A stretch of DNA of 64,000 nt, taken from NCBI RefSeq assembly GCF_016907975.1, contig NZ_JAFBCY010000003.1, positions 558,001-622,000 of the forward strand, written 5' to 3'. This DNA comes from Methylopila capsulata. GTDB taxonomy: Bacteria; Pseudomonadota; Alphaproteobacteria; Rhizobiales; Methylopilaceae. The notes under the pieces are model-generated. The model worked only from the letters and a program-made list of their open reading frames with translations, was not told the DNA's origin and did no database searches. Position 1 is the stretch's first letter. Every line of letters starts with the position of its first letter. Positions 3,901 to 48,060 of the stretch are shown here, in pieces. Made by a program: the position numbers and the translations under genes.

Positions 3901-3952
3901 CCGCGAGGCCCCATATAGGGGCCCGCGGCGGCCCGCGATCCCTCAGGATCGC
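3901..3952. repeat. two inverted repeats between tkt and gap
   Basis: The 177-bp tkt-gap spacer holds an imperfect palindrome at 3901-3928, with arms CCGCG.GGCCCC and GGGGCC.CGCGG around ATATA. A second hairpin follows at 3935-3952, GCGATCC and GGATCGC with a 4-base loop. Neither is followed by a T-run on the plus strand. The second could weakly terminate tkt; the first could be an operator for gap. Both roles are inference. Confidence 0.35.
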
Positions 3953-4029
3953 AGGCCCGCGTCGACAGGGATGACAATCGGGGCGTCGGGCGGACAAGCG
4001 CGGCGCGACAGGGAAGGGAAGACACGACA

Positions 4030-5040
4030 ATGGCGGTGAAGGTCGCGATCAACGGCTTCGGGCGCATCGGACGGCTGGTGCTCCGGGCGATCGTTGAGTC
4101 CGGGCGCAAGGACATCCAGGTGGTCGCGATCAACGACCTGGGGCCGGTGGAGACCAACGCGCACCTGCTGCGCTACGACTCGGTCCACGGCCGCTTTCCC
4201 GCCGAGGTGACCGTCAACGGCGACGTCATCACCGTCGCGGGCCACGGCGACATCAAGGTCACCGCGATCCGCAACCCGGCCGAGCTGCCGCACGCCGAGC
4301 TCGGCGTCGAGATCGCGCTCGAGTGCACGGGGCTGTTCACGGCGAAGGACAAGGCCGCAGCGCACCTGCAGGCCGGCGCGAAGCGCGTCATCGTCTCGGC
4401 TCCCGGCGACGGCGTCGACCTGACGGTCGTGTTCGGCGTCAACGAAGACAAGCTGACGAAGGACCATCTGATCGTCTCGAACGCGTCCTGCACCACGAAC
4501 TGCCTGGCGCCCGTCGCCAAGGTGCTGAACGACGCGATCGGCATCGACCACGGGTTCATGACGACGATCCATTCCTACACCGGCGACCAGCCGACGCTCG
4601 ACACCATGCACAAGGACCTCTACCGCGCCCGCGCGGCGGCCCTCAGCATGATCCCGACCTCGACCGGCGCCGCGAAGGCCGTCGGCCTCGTGCTGCCGGA
4701 GCTCAAGGGCAAGCTCGACGGCGTCTCGATCCGCGTGCCGACCCCGAACGTCTCGGTCATCGACTTCAAGTTCGTGGCCAAGCGTCCGACCAGCGTGCAG
4801 GAGGTCAACGACGCCGTGAAGGCGGCGGCCGCCGGCAAGCTCAAGGGCATTCTCGACGTGGTCGACGCGCCGCTGGTGTCGTCGGACTTCAACCACAACC
4901 CGCACTCGTCGAGCTTCGCGCTCGACCAGACCAAGGTGCTCGAAGGCACCTTCGTCCGCGTGCTGAGCTGGTACGACAACGAGTGGGGCTTCTCGTCCCG
5001 CATGTCGGACACCGCGACCGCGCTCGCGAAGTTCCTCTGA
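4030..5040 (+). CDS. gap: glyceraldehyde-3-phosphate dehydrogenase, type I
   Basis: A 336-residue protein with the complete GAPDH pattern. The N-terminal Rossmann motif is [13 protein letters not shown], the catalytic Cys is in [12 protein letters not shown], and SYTGDQ and WYDNEWGF come later. It oxidises glyceraldehyde-3-phosphate to 1,3-bisphosphoglycerate, or the reverse in gluconeogenesis, in the cytosol. The AIND segment at the end of the second beta strand keeps the Asp typical of NAD use, although the [12 protein letters not shown] stretch resembles alphaproteobacterial enzymes of both glycolytic and Calvin type. A strong purine-rich ribosome site (GGGAAGGGAAG) precedes the ATG. It lies between tkt and pgk. 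Confidence 0.97.
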
Positions 5041-9985: not shown

Positions 9986-10002
9986 CGGGCGCCAAGGGCC
10001 GC

Positions 10003-10107
10003 GTCGTCCCGGACAAGCGCCGCCAGGCGCGCAGATCCGGGACCGCACCCAATCGTCCATCCGAGGCGCGATCCCGGCTCAGCGCTTCGCTGCGGCCGGG
10101 ATGACGG
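10003..10107. repeat. palindromic intergenic repeat, family A
   Basis: Starts GTCGTCCCGGACAAG and ends GGCCGGGATGACGGC, with inner GATCCGGGA and CGATCCCGG. Same architecture as 7395-7507. It fills the efp to FMN-reductase spacer and may fold as a transcript-end hairpin for efp. Confidence 0.7.
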
Positions 10108-11564: not shown

Positions 11565-12533
11565 ATGACCGGTCGGACGCCAGAGCCGCTGATCGACCCC
11601 GCGACGCTGCCGGAGCCTTTGCGTGACGGCCACGTCGTCGTCGGCAATTTCGACGGCGTCCACCGCGGCCACGCCGCGGTGATCGCTCAGGCCGCCGAAC
11701 CCGCCCATGCCGCGGGCCGCCCCGTGGTGGCGCTGACCTTCGAGCCGCACCCGCGCACCTTCTTCCAGCCCGACCGCCCGCTGTTCCGGCTGACCGACTC
11801 CCGCGAGAAGGCGCGCCTGCTGGCGCGCGCAGGCGCCGACGCCACCGTCGTGCTGACCTTCGACGAGCGCCTCTCGCAGATCGAGGCGGAGGACTTCGTC
11901 GCCGAGGTGCTGGCGCGCCGGCTCGGCGCCCACACCGTCGTCGTCGGCTGGGATTTCCATTTCGGCCGCGGCCGGCTGGGCTCGCCCGCCTTTCTCGCGG
12001 AAGCGGGTCCCCGGCACGGCATGTTCGTGGAGGTGGTCCCGCCCCACGGCGGCGCGACGCCGGTCTCCTCCAGCGCGATCCGCGACCTGCTGGCGGCCGG
12101 CGACCTCGCCGCCGCGAACCGCCTGCTCGGGCGCCGCTGGACGGTCGAGACCGAGGTCGTTCACGGCGACAAGCGCGGCCGCGAGCTGGGCTTCCCGACC
12201 GCCAACCTCGTGCTGCCGCCGGAGACCCGGCTGGCCTACGGCATCTACGCCGTGCGCGCGCTGGTCGACGGCGCGATCGTCAACGGCGTCGCGAGCTTCG
12301 GCAGCCGCCCCCAGTTCGACGACGGCGCGCCGCGGCTGGAGGTGTTCCTGCTCGACTTCTCCGGCGATCTCTACGGCAAGCGCCTGCGCGTCGAGCTCGT
12401 CGCCTGGCAGCGCGCCGAGGCGAAATTCGAAAGCGTGGAGGCCCTGATCGCCCAGATGGAGCGCGACAAGGCCGAGGCCCGCCGTCTGCTGACGCAACCG
12501 GAAGACCCGCTCGCGCCGAGCGCGCTGGTCTGA
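11565..12533 (+). CDS. ribF: bifunctional riboflavin kinase / FAD synthetase
   Basis: The 322 residues carry both domains. The N-terminal nucleotidyl-transferase (FAD synthetase) domain has VVGNFDGVHRGHAAVI and a VGWDFHFGRGR loop, and the C-terminal flavokinase domain has GRELGFPTANL and YGIYAVR. It phosphorylates riboflavin to FMN and adenylates FMN to FAD. It is coupled to suhB by a short spacer and followed by a hairpin-forming repeat. No FMN riboswitch is visible here. Confidence 0.96.
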   Translation: MTGRTPEPLIDPATLPEPLRDGHVVVGNFDGVHRGHAAVIAQAAEPAHAAGRPVVALTFEPHPRTFFQPDRPLFRLTDSREKARLLARAGADATVVLTFDERLSQIEAEDFVAEVLARRLGAHTVVVGWDFHFGRGRLGSPAFLAEAGPRHGMFVEVVPPHGGATPVSSSAIRDLLAAGDLAAANRLLGRRWTVETEVVHGDKRGRELGFPTANLVLPPETRLAYGIYAVRALVDGAIVNGVASFGSRPQFDDGAPRLEVFLLDFSGDLYGKRLRVELVAWQRAEAKFESVEALIAQMERDKAEARRLLTQPEDPLAPSALV

Positions 12534-12549
12534 CGTCGAGCGCTGCGGC

Positions 12550-12665
12550 GCCCCGGCCTCCGAGCCGGGGCCGAGATGCGCCTGGAGCGGAATGCCGGGC
12601 GTCCGTCCCGACCAGCCTATGCTTGCTCCGTCGGCGGCTATTGGTCCCGGCTCGGAGGCCGAGAC
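12550..12665. repeat. palindromic element and hairpin after ribF
   Basis: An 8-bp perfect hairpin (GCCCCGGC, loop CTCCGA, GCCGGGGC) lies at 12550-12571. A second block near 12644-12665 (CCCGGCTCGGAGGCCGAGA) is the reverse complement of the first, so the whole 116 bp can fold as one long inverted repeat. It probably ends the ribF transcript. The remaining part of the 364-bp ribF-ileS gap holds only the promoter candidate at 12695-12722. Confidence 0.5.
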
Positions 12666-12694
12666 AAGAACGAGCGCCTTCCGCCCACCCTTCA

Positions 12695-12722
12695 CTTGTC
12701 AGCAAGCCCGACCCTGCTACAA
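12695..12722 (+). promoter_or_regulatory. candidate ileS promoter
   Basis: CTTGTC (12695-12700), a 16-base spacer and CTACAA (12717-12722), close to the alphaproteobacterial CTTGAC/CTATAT type. The leader to the ileS ATG would be about 170 nt. No T-box or other riboswitch fold was recognised in it. Confidence 0.4.
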
Positions 12723-12897
12723 GGCGCGCAACCTCTTCGCCTGAGGCTTGGATCCATGCGCCTGCGTCTGTCTCCCACCTTCCGAATTACCGGCCCGGCC
12801 TTCGCCTGAGCCGCGCGGGTCGCGCGTTGCTCACGCGACGGGCCGGGAGACGACACGCCGCCTGACCGACGCCTCACGAGACACCCGGACGCGCCCC

Positions 12898-15800
12898 ATG
12901 CCCTCCGACGTTAAGTCCTCCGACACGACGCCCCGCGACTACTCCGAAACCCTGTACCTGCCGCAGACCGATTTCCCCATGCGCGCCGGCCTCCCCCAGA
13001 AGGAGCCGGAGCTGCTGAAGCGCTGGGAGCGCATCGGGCTCTACGAAAAGCTGCGCGCGTCCAGCGCCGGACGGAAGAAGTACGTCCTGCACGACGGCCC
13101 GCCCTACGCCAACGGCCACCTGCACATCGGCCACGCGCTCAACAAGATCCTGAAGGACGTGGTGGTGCGCACCCGCCAGATGGCGGGCTTCGACTCGAAC
13201 TACGTGCCGGGCTGGGACTGCCACGGCCTGCCGATCGAGTGGAAGGTCGAGGAGGTCTACCGCGCCAAGGGCCTGAACAAGGACGAGGTGCCGGTCATCG
13301 AGTTCCGCAAGGAGTGCCGGGAGTACGCGCAGAACTGGATCGGGATCCAGTCCGCGGAGTTCCAGCGCCTCGGCGTCACCGGCGACTGGAAGGACCCCTA
13401 CACCACCATGAAGTTCTCGGCCGAGGCGCAGATCGCCCGCGAGATCATGACCTTCGCCAAGTCCGGCCAGCTCTACCGCGGCTCGAAGCCGGTGATGTGG
13501 TCGGTGGTGGAGCGGACCGCGCTCGCCGAGGCCGAGATCGAGTACCAGGAGTTCACCAGCGACACGGTGTTCGTGGCGTTTCCGCTGTCTTCCCCCTCCC
13601 CCCTTGCGGGGGAGGGTCGGGGTGGGGGGTGGTCCAGAACGGAGCGCGACGGCGACGCCGCGAGCGGCGCCATGGGCGCCACGTCCGGCGCCACCCCCAC
13701 CCCTAACCCCTCCCCACAAGGGGGAGGGGAACTGGAGAACGCCTCCGTCGTCATCTGGACGACCACGCCCTGGACCCTGCCCGGCAACCGCGCCGTCGCG
13801 TACTCGCACAAGATCGCCTACGGCCTCTATGAGGTGACCGAGGCGGCCGAGGACAACTGGGCGAAGGTCGGCGCGCGCTACCTCCTCGCCGACGCGCTGG
13901 CCGAGGGCGTGTTCAAGGCCGCCAAGGTCACCGGGTTCTCGAAGGTCCGCGAAGTTTCGGCCGAAGAGCTCGAGGGCCTCGTCGCCGCGCATCCGCTCAA
14001 AGAGCACGGCTACGACTTCGCCGTCCCCCTGCTGCCCGGCGACCACGTCACCGACGACGCCGGCACGGGCTTCGTGCACACGGCGCCCGGCCACGGCCGC
14101 GAGGACTTCGAGCTCTGGATGGACCATCGCTTCGATCTGGAGAAGCGCGGCATCAGCTCGAAGATCCCCTACACGGTCGACGCCGAGGGCTTCCTCACCA
14201 AAGACGCGCCGGGCTTCACCGGCCGCTCGGTCATCACCCACAGGGGCGACAAGGGCGACGCCAACCAGGCGGTGATCGACGCGCTGGTCGCGGGCGGCCG
14301 CCTCGTCGCGCGCGGCAAGCTGCGGCACCAGTACCCGCACTCCTGGCGCTCCAAGAAGCCGGTGATCTTCCGCAACACCCCGCAGTGGTTCATCCACATG
14401 GACCGCGACATCGCCGGCCCCGCGGACACGCTGCGCTCGCGGGCGCTGGCCGCGATCGAGGCGACGGCGTTCTACCCGCCCCAGGGCAAGAACCGCCTGC
14501 GCGGCATGATCGAGGGTCGGCCGGACTGGGTGGTCTCGCGCCAGCGCGCCTGGGGCGTGCCGATCACCGTGTTCGTGCACAAGGAGACCGGCGAGATCCT
14601 GCAGGATCCGCGCGTCGACGCCCGCATCGCGGAGGCCTTCGAGGCCGAGGGCGCCGACGCCTGGTTCGCCGACGACGGCTCGCGCTTCCTCGGCAACGAC
14701 CACGCGCTGTCGGACTACGACAAGGTGCCCGACATCCTCGACGTCTGGTTCGATTCGGGCTCGACCCACGCCTATGTGCTGGACCGTCGGCCCGACCTCA
14801 GCCCGACGCGCATCGTCGACGGCGGCGAGGACCAGGTGCTCTACCTCGAGGGCTCGGACCAGCACCGTGGCTGGTTCCACTCGTCGCTGCTGGAAAGCTG
14901 CGGCACGCGTGGGCGGGCGCCCTACGACGCGCTGCTGACCCACGGCTTCGTGCTCGACGAGCAGGGCCGCAAGATGTCGAAGTCGCTCGGCAACATTGTC
15001 GCGCCGCAGAAGATCATCGAGCAGTCCGGCGCCGACATCCTGCGCCTCTGGGTCGTGCTGTCGGACTACGCCGACGACCTGCGCATCGGCCAGGAGATCC
15101 TGAAGACCGCGAGCGACGCCTACCGCAAGCTGCGCAACACGCTGCGCTGGATGCTCGGCGCGCTGGCGCACTTCCAGGACGGCGACGTCGTCGCGGTCGA
15201 GGACATGCCGGAGCTGGAGCGCTACGTGCTGCACCGGCTGGCGGAGGTCGACACCGAGGTCGAGGCCGCCTACGAGGCCTTCGACTTCAAGCGCGGCTTC
15301 GCGAGCCTGTTCACCTTCCTGACCAACGACCTCTCGGCGTTCTACTTCGACGTCCGCAAGGACGCTCTCTACTGCGACCCGGCGTCGTCGGTGACCCGCC
15401 GCGCCTGCCTCACAGTGATCGACCGCGTGTTCCGCACGCTGGCGACGCGGCTCGCGCCGCTGCTGCCGTTCACCGCCGAGGAGACCTGGCTGTCGCGCTT
15501 CCCCAGCGAGGACGGCTCCGTTCATCTCGAGCTCTACGCGCTGGCCGACAACGCCTGGCGCGACGAGGCGCTGGCGGCGAAATGGGAAAACGTCCGCAAG
15601 GTCCGCCGCGTGGTGACCGGGGCGCTGGAGATCGAGCGCGCGGCGAAGCGCATCGGCTCGTCGCTGGAAGCCGCGCCGGTGGTTCACGTGACCGATCCGG
15701 AGCTCGCCCTGGCGCTGAAGGGCGTCGACCTCGCCGAGGTCGCGATCACCAGCGCCATCAAGGTCGTCTCCGACGAGGCGCCGGCCGACGCGTTCCGTCT

Positions 15801-15972
15801 TGCGGACGTGGCCGGCGTCGCCGTCGTCCCGGCGCGGGCGGAAGGCCGGAAATGCGCCCGCTCGTGGAAGGTGACGCCCGACGTCGGCGCGGACGCCGAC
15901 TACCCCGACGTCACCCCCCGCGACGCCCAGGCGCTGCGCGAGTGGGAAGCCGCCCGGAGCCGCGCGGCGTGA
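12898..15972 (+). CDS. ileS: isoleucyl-tRNA synthetase
   Basis: A 1024-residue class I synthetase from ATG 12898. HIGH is seen as HLHIGHAL (residues about 74-81) and the KMSKS loop as [10 protein letters not shown] (about 690-699). The editing domain has WTTTPWT and [12 protein letters not shown], and [10 protein letters not shown] precedes the second catalytic half. It is longer than usual because a palindromic DNA element is read through in frame at residues about 231-279, inside the editing (CP1) domain just before [11 protein letters not shown]. The C-terminal zinc site appears reduced: only one Cys (KCARSWK) is left where classical enzymes have four. It charges tRNA-Ile. Confidence 0.97.
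13590..13732. repeat. palindromic element inserted in frame within ileS
   Basis: A 143-bp GC-rich inverted repeat with outer arms near TTCCCCCTCCCC and GGGGGAGGGGAA and inner arms GGTGGGGGGTGG and CCACCCCCACCCC. Its translation is low-complexity, beginning [14 protein letters not shown] and ending [11 protein letters not shown], unlike any synthetase sequence. The reading frame stays open through it and the conserved editing-domain sequence resumes immediately after. Related elements lie at 15988-16137 and 45931-45965. Confidence 0.8.
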
Positions 15973-15987
15973 GGCGCGTCAAGCTCC

Positions 15988-16137
15988 TATCCCTCCCCTG
16001 GGACAGGGGAGGGTGGCCCCGCCGCACGGCGGGGTCGGGCGGGGTGGGCCGCAGGGTGGAGCCCCACCCCCAAGGCCCCACCCGACCCTTTGCTCCGCAA
16101 AGGGCCACCCTCCCCACGCCTTCGGCGCGAGGAGGGA
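15988..16137. repeat. palindromic element between ileS and lspA
   Basis: A 150-bp GC-rich inverted repeat. TCCCTCCCC at the left pairs with AGGAGGGA at the right, and inner GGGTGGCCC pairs with GGGCCACCC. It is the same CCCTCCCC type as the one inside ileS and lies 15 bp after the ileS stop. Confidence 0.65.
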
Positions 16138-16165
16138 TCCCCGCGCCCCGTCCGGCGATCGCAGC

Positions 16166-16663
16166 ATGACCCTCGCCTCCCCCGCCCGCCGCGCCTATGC
16201 GCTCGCGATCGTCGTCTTCGTGCTCGACCAGGCGCTGAAGCTCTGGGCGCTGTTCGTGTTCGACCTCGCCGCCAAGGGCCGCGTCGCCGTCGCGCCGCTG
16301 TTCGACCTGGTGCTCGTCTGGAACACCGGCGTCTCCTACGGCCTGCTGCAGCAGGACAGCGATTTCGGCCGCTGGGCGCTGGTCGCGCTCCACGTGGTCG
16401 CCTCGATCGCGATCACGATCTGGATAGCGCGCGAGAAGGACGCGCTGTCCGCCTGGGCGCTCGCGCTCATCCTTGGCGGCGCGGTGGGCAACGGCGTCGA
16501 CCGGGTCGCCTACGGCGCCGTGGTCGATTACGCGCTGCTGCACTGGGGCGAGGTCACCTGGTACGTGTTCAATCTGGCCGATGCGGCCATCGTTGCGGGG
16601 GTCCTGCTGCTTCTGTATGGTGCGCTCCGCGGCTCGAAGGGCGCCACGGGGGTAACTTCGTAG
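16166..16663 (+). CDS. lspA: lipoprotein signal peptidase (signal peptidase II)
   Basis: A 165-residue inner-membrane protein from ATG 16166; upstream in-frame codons lie in repeat DNA. It has four hydrophobic segments and the two catalytic aspartates in GGAVGNGVDRVAYGAVVDY and FNLADAAIVAG. WNTGVSYGLL fits the family's N(T/R)GxxFG position with a variation. It cleaves prolipoprotein signal peptides after lipid attachment. The ileS-lspA order is common in proteobacteria. Confidence 0.93.
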   Translation: MTLASPARRAYALAIVVFVLDQALKLWALFVFDLAAKGRVAVAPLFDLVLVWNTGVSYGLLQQDSDFGRWALVALHVVASIAITIWIAREKDALSAWALALILGGAVGNGVDRVAYGAVVDYALLHWGEVTWYVFNLADAAIVAGVLLLLYGALRGSKGATGVTS

Positions 16664-36360: not shown

Positions 36361-36373
36361 GTCCGCAAACGGA

Positions 36374-36478
36374 CGTCATCCCGGACGGCCGAAGGCCGAG
36401 CCGGGATCGTGATCCGGGGAGAGCGCCGTTCAGAACGATCCCGGCTCTGCGCGGCTGCGCCGCTTGGCCGGGATGACG
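36374..36478. repeat. palindromic intergenic repeat, family A
   Basis: Starts CGTCATCCCGGACGGCC and ends TTGGCCGGGATGACGCT, with inner GCCGAGCCGGGATCG and CGATCCCGGCTCTGCG. Third clear copy of the type at 7395 and 10003. It lies between the convergent purD and HAD genes. Confidence 0.75.
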
Positions 36479-36482
36479 CTCC

Positions 36483-37352
36483 TCACCACGTCAGCTTGGG
36501 CGTGACCGCGACCGGCGTGTCGCCATGCTCGGCGAACAGCGCCGCGAGCTTCTCCGGGTCGGGAGCGCCGGGGCCGAGCTCCTCGGCGTGGATGCCGTCC
36601 GCCACGAACAGGCAGTCGATGCCCGCCGCCGCGGCGCCCGCGAGGTCGGTGCGCACGGCGTCGCCGATCGCGATGATGCGGGAGCGGTCGACAGCGCGCT
36701 TGCGGATGTCGGAGGCGACGGCGATCGCGGCGTCGTAGATCGGGGCGTAGGGCTTGCCGGCGTAGTGGGTCTCGCCGCCCAAGTCGCGGTACATGTCGGC
36801 GATCGCGCCGGCGCACCAGATCAGGTCGTCGCCGATCTGCACCACCAGGTCGGGGTTGGCGCAGATCAGCGGCATGCCGCGGTCCTTCAGCTCCTCGAGC
36901 AGCGGGCGGTAGTCCTCCGGCTCCTCGGTCCGGTCGTCGAACAGGCCGGTCACCACAGCGAGCGGCGCCTCCTCCACGCTCACGCGCGCGATGCGCTCGT
37001 CGCCGAACAGCGGCACGTCGCGCATCGGCCCGATGTGATGGACCTTCGCCACGCCCCGCTCCGCCAACATGTGGTGGGTGACGTCGCCCGAGGTGATCAC
37101 CGCGTCCCAGGCGCTGCGCGGCACGCCGTAGCCGTCGAGGTGGTCGATCACCCACTCGCTGTCGCGGGGCGCGTTCGAGATCAGCACCACGACGCCGCCC
37201 TGCGCGCGGAACCGCGTCAGCGCGTCGCCGGCCTCCGCATGGGCCGCGACGCCGTTGTGCAGCACGCCCCAGACGTCGCACAGCGCGACGTCGTAGGCGG
37301 AGGCGAGCGGCGCGAACCGCGCGAAGACGGGGGAGTCGGAGATGTCGGTCAT
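36483..37352 (-). CDS. TIGR01459 family HAD-superfamily hydrolase
   Basis: A 289-residue HAD-IIA protein. Motif I is CDVWGVLHNG (nucleophile and acid/base Asp replaced in the usual DxW pattern of this group), motif II is VVLISNAPR, and the C-terminal IAIGDAVRTDLAGAAAAGID is motif IV. Relatives are NagD/PGPase-type sugar phosphatases; the substrate of the TIGR01459 subgroup is unknown. It converges with purD. The Asp-Val-Trp triplet should be checked for whether activity is kept. Confidence 0.85.
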   Translation of the reverse strand: MTDISDSPVFARFAPLASAYDVALCDVWGVLHNGVAAHAEAGDALTRFRAQGGVVVLISNAPRDSEWVIDHLDGYGVPRSAWDAVITSGDVTHHMLAERGVAKVHHIGPMRDVPLFGDERIARVSVEEAPLAVVTGLFDDRTEEPEDYRPLLEELKDRGMPLICANPDLVVQIGDDLIWCAGAIADMYRDLGGETHYAGKPYAPIYDAAIAVASDIRKRAVDRSRIIAIGDAVRTDLAGAAAAGIDCLFVADGIHAEELGPGAPDPEKLAALFAEHGDTPVAVTPKLTW

Positions 37353-45930: not shown

Positions 45931-45965
45931 CTCGTTCCCCTCCCCCTTGCGGGGAGGGGAACGAG
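45931..45965. terminator. perfect 15-bp hairpin (repeat element) after hisS
   Basis: CTCGTTCCCCTCCCC, loop CTTGC, then GGGGAGGGGAACGAG: a perfect 15-bp stem between the convergent hisS and 45976 genes. Its core matches the GC-rich elements at 13590 and 15988, so a mobile repeat may serve here as a bidirectional terminator. Confidence 0.6.
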
Positions 45966-47936: not shown

Positions 47937-47956
47937 CGCGCCCGCCCCTCGCGATC

Positions 47957-48060
47957 CGTCATGCCCCGGCTTGTCCGGGGCATCCAGCAGCCCGCGGGGC
48001 GGCGCCCAACGATCTGGCCTGGATCCCCCGGCCGCGCGTTTTCCAAACGGGTCCGGACCA
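47957..48060. repeat. palindromic intergenic repeat, within operon
   Basis: Begins CGTCATGCCCCGG, with an immediate hairpin GCCCCGGCTTGTCCGGGGC, and continues to TTTTCCAAACGGGTCCGGAC. It is related to the CGTCATGCC family seen at 52602 and 63783 and lies between the two permease genes. Confidence 0.6.

Follow-up and report, generated by a model that had tools for sequence, protein, structure and literature searches.

An in-frame palindromic repeat in the ileS gene of Methylopila capsulata very probably occupies a tolerant protein loop shared by unrelated palindromes within the genus

The ileS gene of Methylopila capsulata contains a G+C-rich palindrome that is read in frame, and this insert is very probably a copy of a dispersed repeat (family A) lodged in a disordered, tolerant loop of isoleucyl-tRNA synthetase (IleRS), one of several protein loops that are shared by unrelated palindromes. 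The DNA analyzed here (the window) is a stretch of 64,000 nucleotides (contig NZ_JAFBCY010000003.1, positions 558,001 to 622,000), and its features are listed in Table 1. The initial annotation had described an inverted repeat that interrupts ileS without breaking the frame. Both points held: the two arms are 36 nt each and 78% complementary, no stop codon occurs within the element, and 48 residues are added before WTTTPWT. The loop has 54 residues here and 8 at the empty site of the close relative G011, which makes a net gain of 46 residues. The RNA fold of the palindrome had an energy of -103.3 kcal/mol, compared with a mean of -77.1 for shuffled sequences (z = -5.8), and none of 200 dinucleotide shuffles folded as well. 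Family A copies are ~140 bp in length, start approximately with TTCCCC and end approximately with GGGGAA, and are built from two inverted arms, each bearing a hairpin, that flank a variable centre. A genome search with the element indicated that it is dispersed, as had been proposed, with at least 56 matches in the same genome (both strands counted; 40 of 305 candidates scored). No Rfam match was obtained for positions 12400–16400 at E-values up to 0.1.

Table 1. Coordinates of the ileS insert, its parts, and the neighboring palindromes in the window, with the elements found at the same spacers of other genomes of the genus.
Feature	Position	Strand	Remarks
ileS, isoleucyl-tRNA synthetase, 1024 aa	12898..15972	+	HIGH 76-79, WTTTPWT 287-293, KMSKS 692-696 present
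Family A palindrome, 143 bp, in frame	13590..13732	+	IleRS residues 231-278 (48 residues)
Left arm of ileS palindrome	13593..13628	+	own hairpin CCCTCCCCCC TTGC GGGGGAGGG
Right arm of ileS palindrome	13694..13729	+	hairpin CCCCTCCCC ACAA GGGGGAGGGG
WTTTPWT editing motif, downstream of ileS insert	13756..13776	+	
Family E palindrome, ribF-ileS spacer	12546..12669	.	G007, G005: family C; G011: CGTC-type (F)
Family C palindrome, ileS-lspA spacer	15986..16141	.	G011: CGTC dimer (B); G005: E; G007: B with nested D
Single-hairpin remnant, family A	45935..45961	.	full A element in same spacer of G007
CGTC-REP dimer (family B), spacer	10001..10106	.	G007: F element there
CGTC-REP dimer (family B), spacer	36370..36484	.	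G007: same family; none in short G011, G005 stretches compared

Palindromes break assemblies, and the independent assemblies of G009 and G010 have contigs that end inside a family A element at the corresponding position of ileS, with a tail in G010 (L162, G010:C4, 1-60) that we take to resemble a sequencing adapter. Such breaks would be compatible with a sequencing or assembly error, but the insert lies 570 kb into its contig and is in frame, and the site is also filled in other genomes. The gene is located at position 570,898 of a contig of 995,166 nucleotides, i.e., mid-contig, and therefore the insert is not a contig-end artefact; an error was rejected as having a negligible probability. 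The gene is also single-copy, with one full-length match in its own genome among the matches listed and the next listed match being 27% identical.

A census of the same genome, which was conducted over 857 kb by using BLAST with family seeds (the D seed being derived from glyS of G007), identified 51 elements belonging to six families (A 15, B 12, C 12, D 3, E 1, and F 8); the family labels follow the best-scoring BLAST hit or, at several coding loops, inspection by eye, and variants were lumped. Forty-eight of the 51 elements were intergenic, and the remaining three were located in genes, all in frame. Approximately 86–87% of the censused DNA was called coding by a gene caller made for this analysis, and elements are strongly depleted from genes. 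The three genes were ileS (A), glyS-beta (A), and a methyltransferase gene (PF02636; C) to which we have assigned the name midA. A strict regular-expression census yielded 39 clusters, including three in genes. A family-blind scan for long gapless arms detected eight places, none of which was in a gene, and was replaced by the seeded BLAST search because it had missed ileS and most of the other elements. An estimate of the share of copies that are both open and divisible by three came from few copies (14 A, 18 B, 6 D, and 7 C) and was left out of the argument. The initial annotation had also placed the ileS repeat type at two positions between genes. This was correct in part: the more distant position carries a one-hairpin remnant of family A, in which a deletion inside the palindrome is suggested by the full copy present in G007, whereas the element between ileS and lspA belongs to a different family (C).

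A search of 866 kb of G007 with the elements of this census and the D seed yielded 61 elements, including five within genes and one at the end of a gene. The genes were ileS (B), glyS (D), the midA-like gene (A), the linker of a permease-ATPase (D), and a gene that we read as ureF-like (D). In the ureF-like gene, the element is probably located upstream of the true start, as the match from the window's genome begins only after the element. The ileS, glyS, and midA-like genes were hit in both G000 (the window's genome) and G007, and in each of the three the two genomes carry elements of different families in the same loop. A second sample of 20 places, most of which were fetched because of earlier search matches and which is thus not random, contained 38 elements (33 intergenic, four within genes, and one at the end of a gene). 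Three of the in-gene elements were from the window's genome, namely in cobN (C), in the N-terminal tail of uvrB (A), and at the C-terminal end of a 398-residue protein. The fourth was an in-frame A element in a 1258-residue protein of G012 (L358, G012:C1:470000-478000, 3904-4048), where two codons read X.

At the protein level, the HIGH, KMSKS, and WTTTPWT motifs and the HTAPGHG region were all present and largely invariant in an alignment of 48 IleRS, and the insert mapped between residues 215 and 224 of S. aureus IleRS (1ffy alignment). An AlphaFold2 model of IleRS built with 48 sequences (mean pLDDT of 86.8; TMt of 0.92 to 8c9f and 0.86 to 1qu2) placed residues 234-275 in a coil with pLDDT <50, between the confidently predicted strands 214-230 and 282-288. 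The connection between the conserved F and W that includes this site ranged from 13 to 59 residues (median, 17.5) among 80 wider alphaproteobacterial IleRS, and this length variation among relatives identifies the site as a naturally indel-tolerant loop. In a survey of 108 loops from 110 sources (the two missed being contig-end pieces), the loops of G000, G002, G005, G007, and G012 beat all 60 shuffles with arm scores of 12–18, as did three of the 80 wider loops (L034, L055, and L059; 15–17 residues, arm scores of 8–11). The view that the element can be tolerated in a loop is supported by the model, as the insert falls in a segment predicted to be disordered and the catalytic and editing motifs are intact. 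On the other hand, the further suggestion of a functional gain for IleRS editing through a novel loop was not supported: the site is length-variable among the 80 relatives, it is short in five of 13 congeners, including G011, of which the IleRS is 96–97% identical to that of the window, and the inserts show no sequence relationship from one species to another. The data can be accounted for by loop tolerance, without a gain of function.

The comparison set consisted of 13 genomes of the genus (G000 to G012), and the ileS loop was found in several states. Family A was present in four genomes (G000, G009, G010, and G012, by reading the sequences), CGTC-REP dimers (family B) in three (G002, G005, and G007), an unrelated loop of ~33 residues in one (G001), and a short loop of 8–10 residues in five (G003, G004, G006, G008, and G011). 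The family B elements at ileS carry the CGTC tag, have AT at the start of the stem, and form a head-to-head dimer (CGTCATCCCGG...CCGGGAYGACG). In the ileS tree, of which some nodes are weak (34, 40, and 56%), G007 adjoins G000, and the former holds B and the latter A. A single ancient insertion that was inherited in the genus and then diverged would explain why many congeners have something at this site, but it was rejected as highly improbable because the families are unrelated, short sites lie between them on the tree, and at least six changes are required at ileS. The same segment in all relatives with no palindromy at the DNA level, which would have spoken against a mobile element, was looked for among the relatives and was not found. 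Exchange between species, in which homologous recombination in the conserved flanks would move the loop with its element, appears unlikely. Outside its own genome, the insert had its best listed match in the ileS insert of G009 (87%), despite the gene tree placing G000 beside G007; however, the centre of the G000 insert scores 30 against G009 and 29 against another copy in G010, and the post-insert codons LENAS match G007 and not G009 (LERAS).

The occupation of protein loops extends to four other genes. The glyS loop contained A-type elements in four genomes and D elements in three, and was short or non-palindromic in six (by reading), whereas the midA-like loop contained C in two genomes (that of G001 being called by peptide only, at an assembly gap), A in one, and B in one, and was short in nine. 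In cobN, 11 of 13 genomes were filled, by C in G000, G007, and G009 (at a contig edge) and by CGTC-type elements in eight (seven called by pattern and G011 by eye); all 11 filled loops beat 100 shuffles, whereas the two short ones did not. The uvrB tail was filled in seven of 13 genomes: A was found in G000 and G007, a CGTC-type element in G001 (by eye), and a composite in G002, G006, G009, and G012 that consists of a CGTC dimer followed by only the right arm of an A-type element (the CGTC part of G009 being assigned by eye). The uvrB element of G000 failed the inverted-repeat shuffle test (15 of 100 shuffles were as good), and that of G009 tied once with shuffles. In the N-terminal tail of uvrB (L401, L402, L405, and L406), the CGTC dimer looks like an overwrite of the A left arm. 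Two additional variable places were observed in GlyRS-beta (glyS L257, L259, L265, L255, and L254), one near residue 290, with an A-like peptide in G012, and one near residue 507, with long segments in G001, G004, G006, and G009.

G000 and G007 carry the same family at cobN and uvrB, and they thus differ at three of the five coding sites. In total, 36 of 65 gene-by-genome cells were filled, by four classes, with seven of the 13 genomes filled at ileS, seven at glyS, four at midA, 11 at cobN, and seven at uvrB. On the ileS tree, the five coding loci together require no fewer than 28 state changes (minimum of 6 at ileS, 8 at glyS, 4 at midA, 4 at cobN, and 6 at uvrB), a count that treats composite and long non-palindromic loops as states. 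No coding locus among the five showed significantly fewer changes than shuffled labels on this tree. These loci were chosen because G000 has an element there, and cobN and uvrB came from chosen places. Domestication of the loop, with the palindrome peptide being selected to tune IleRS editing or tRNA binding, would be in line with the location of the insert directly before the editing motif and with the presence of some palindrome at the site in seven of 13 species. It is nevertheless very unlikely, considering that the peptides of different families have no evident shared sequence, that the loop is minimal in five of 13 species and predicted to be disordered, and that the same occupation is observed in four unrelated proteins.

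We favor the tolerant-loop reading stated at the outset, which could have come about as follows. A family A copy would have landed in frame, with no stop codon, in an indel-tolerant loop of the editing (CP1) domain of IleRS, and the insert is predicted to be translated as an inert segment of the enzyme. Several repeat families may keep moving and insert repeatedly. Most coding insertions would disrupt the reading frame or the protein fold and be purged for that reason, so that the few tolerant places, namely spacers downstream of stop codons and certain loops or tails of proteins, would become shared docking sites. Replacement might take place partly in situ, with a new element entering and overwriting the old one, as in uvrB, where the CGTC dimer with only the right A arm in four species is the remnant expected from overwriting. 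Certain protein loops thus appear to serve as places where one piece of selfish DNA can be swapped for another.

Among known systems, Rickettsia palindromic elements (RPEs) are the closest in behavior. According to the available text of PMC2229807, RPEs are stem-loop repeats of 105–146 bp that occur between genes and in frame inside conserved proteins, and the one tested product that it names, gmk, was translated and active, with a changed substrate affinity. The ileS insert is similar in size and in its stem-loop (143 bp, z = -5.8), and the 51 elements of the six families are likewise found both inside genes (3) and between them (48). The parallel with RPEs that had been drawn at the outset is thus apt for in-frame occurrence in coding DNA, as a likeness of behavior. 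In contrast to RPEs, the families described here are G+C-rich, the named relatives of the genus are mostly Hyphomicrobiales, and sister species have unrelated families re-occupying one and the same loop.

CGTC REPs of Alphaproteobacteria, as described in the available text of Di Nocera 2013 (PMC3733652), have a terminal CGTC tag, an 8–9 bp stem starting with AT, and a CCA tail; they have been reported inside genes, including tRNA synthetases and uvrB of R. conorii, with no dedicated transposase. Family B, family F, and the related elements in cobN and uvrB look like head-to-head dimers of this type, whereas the family A insert in ileS has no CGTC tag. The same text notes that recB of two Xanthomonas carries different REPs at nearly the same position and that, in the other genes of the functional category of recB, REPs lie at different sites. 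Its discussion leaves undecided whether the CGTC families are disappearing or continue to be mobilized. Compared with that recB case as it is presented there, five coding sites are shared here. REPs inside genes, plus one published remark on recB, were thus already on record in the text available, and what is new is that unrelated palindromes have repeatedly re-occupied the same coding sites in a single genus. Among the papers listed by a literature search, which reached few subscription papers, no other described coding loops that are re-occupied again and again.

The elements also resemble GTAG REPs in being high-copy palindromic repeats that are located mostly in spacers. RAYT is the transposase type proposed for GTAG REPs. 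Unlike these, family A has no GTAG end, and a domain of the RAYT type (Y1_Tnp, PF01797) was found in only one of the 13 genomes of the genus, the window's genome being without it, whereas the same search was positive in five of 14 control genomes. RAYT mobilization was rejected, as no Y1_Tnp was found in 12 of 13 genomes. The ileS insert further resembles MITEs, since it is short and multicopy and has terminal inverted arms. In contrast to MITEs, no target-site duplication was detected in A or B: no excess over mismatched flanks was observed in A (52 readings) or B (33), where some elements were counted on both strands, and none above mismatched flanks was found in C (8 readings) or F (9). As to a parent transposon, the search covered Y1_Tnp, with the result given above.

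Turnover was also evident between genes. When the 51 elements were looked up in G007, 23 had the same family, 11 a different family, and six none at the corresponding place, and 11 were unplaced; in the reverse look-up of the 61 G007 elements, 26 had the same family, 11 a different one, and 24 none. Different families were thus found at 11 of 34 occupied orthologous loci of these two sister species, which argues for recent movement. Across 496 syntenic spacers out of 745 examined between G000 and G007, spacers with an element not shared by family held another family in G007 in 8 of 14 cases, whereas 13 of the 461 spacers that were empty in G000 were occupied in G007 (Fisher p = 9e-9). The excess was confined to codirectional spacers (8/13 vs. 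8/311; convergent, 0/1 vs. 5/66). With divergent spacers excluded and lengths matched, it amounted to 8/13 vs. 12/243 at 20–1500 bp, 6/9 vs. 11/188 at 40–300 bp, and 4/6 vs. 10/164 at 60–300 bp, and it was weaker at a net length of 100–400 bp, with divergent spacers again excluded (3/6 vs. 10/119, p = 0.015).

This re-occupation above background would be expected if insertion were directed to the site, i.e., if it recognized a feature there, in the simplest case an existing palindrome or cruciform, so that palindromes replace palindromes and tolerance alone were not the reason. In the ileS-lspA spacer of G007 (L166, ~15965-16229), a CGTC dimer of family B has a D palindrome nested between its two arms; the CGTC dimer with its residual A arm in uvrB of four species and the 5' junctions of different families, which are a few bases apart in ileS and midA, point in the same direction. 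However, the scarcity of tolerant spacers and loops alone raises the rate of coincidence, the B/D pair in G007 is the one clear nested pair among those listed in the two censuses, and the C/D double labels in G007 look like cross-matches. Site-directed insertion is therefore possible, if somewhat doubtful. The wider reading, in which docking sites that include parts of CobN, UvrB, and essential enzymes such as IleRS and GlyRS-beta are emptied and refilled by unrelated REP-like families via an activity recognizing existing palindromes, and thereby serve as interchangeable loop modules, is offered tentatively and is rather unlikely in our estimate; if it were true, selfish DNA would supply such modules to proteins.

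These results indicate that palindromic repeats turn over between sister species at fixed sites, both inside essential genes and between genes, in a genus for which the search yielded no RAYT in 12 of 13 genomes. They also provide a natural series of one enzyme with short, A-filled, and CGTC-filled loops, in which the cost of inserts is directly testable. Both spacers flanking ileS contain differing palindrome families in several of G000, G011, G007, and G005. At ~47940-48060, between two aligned blocks, the window's genome has ~130 extra bases with a CGTC-like repeat relative to G007.
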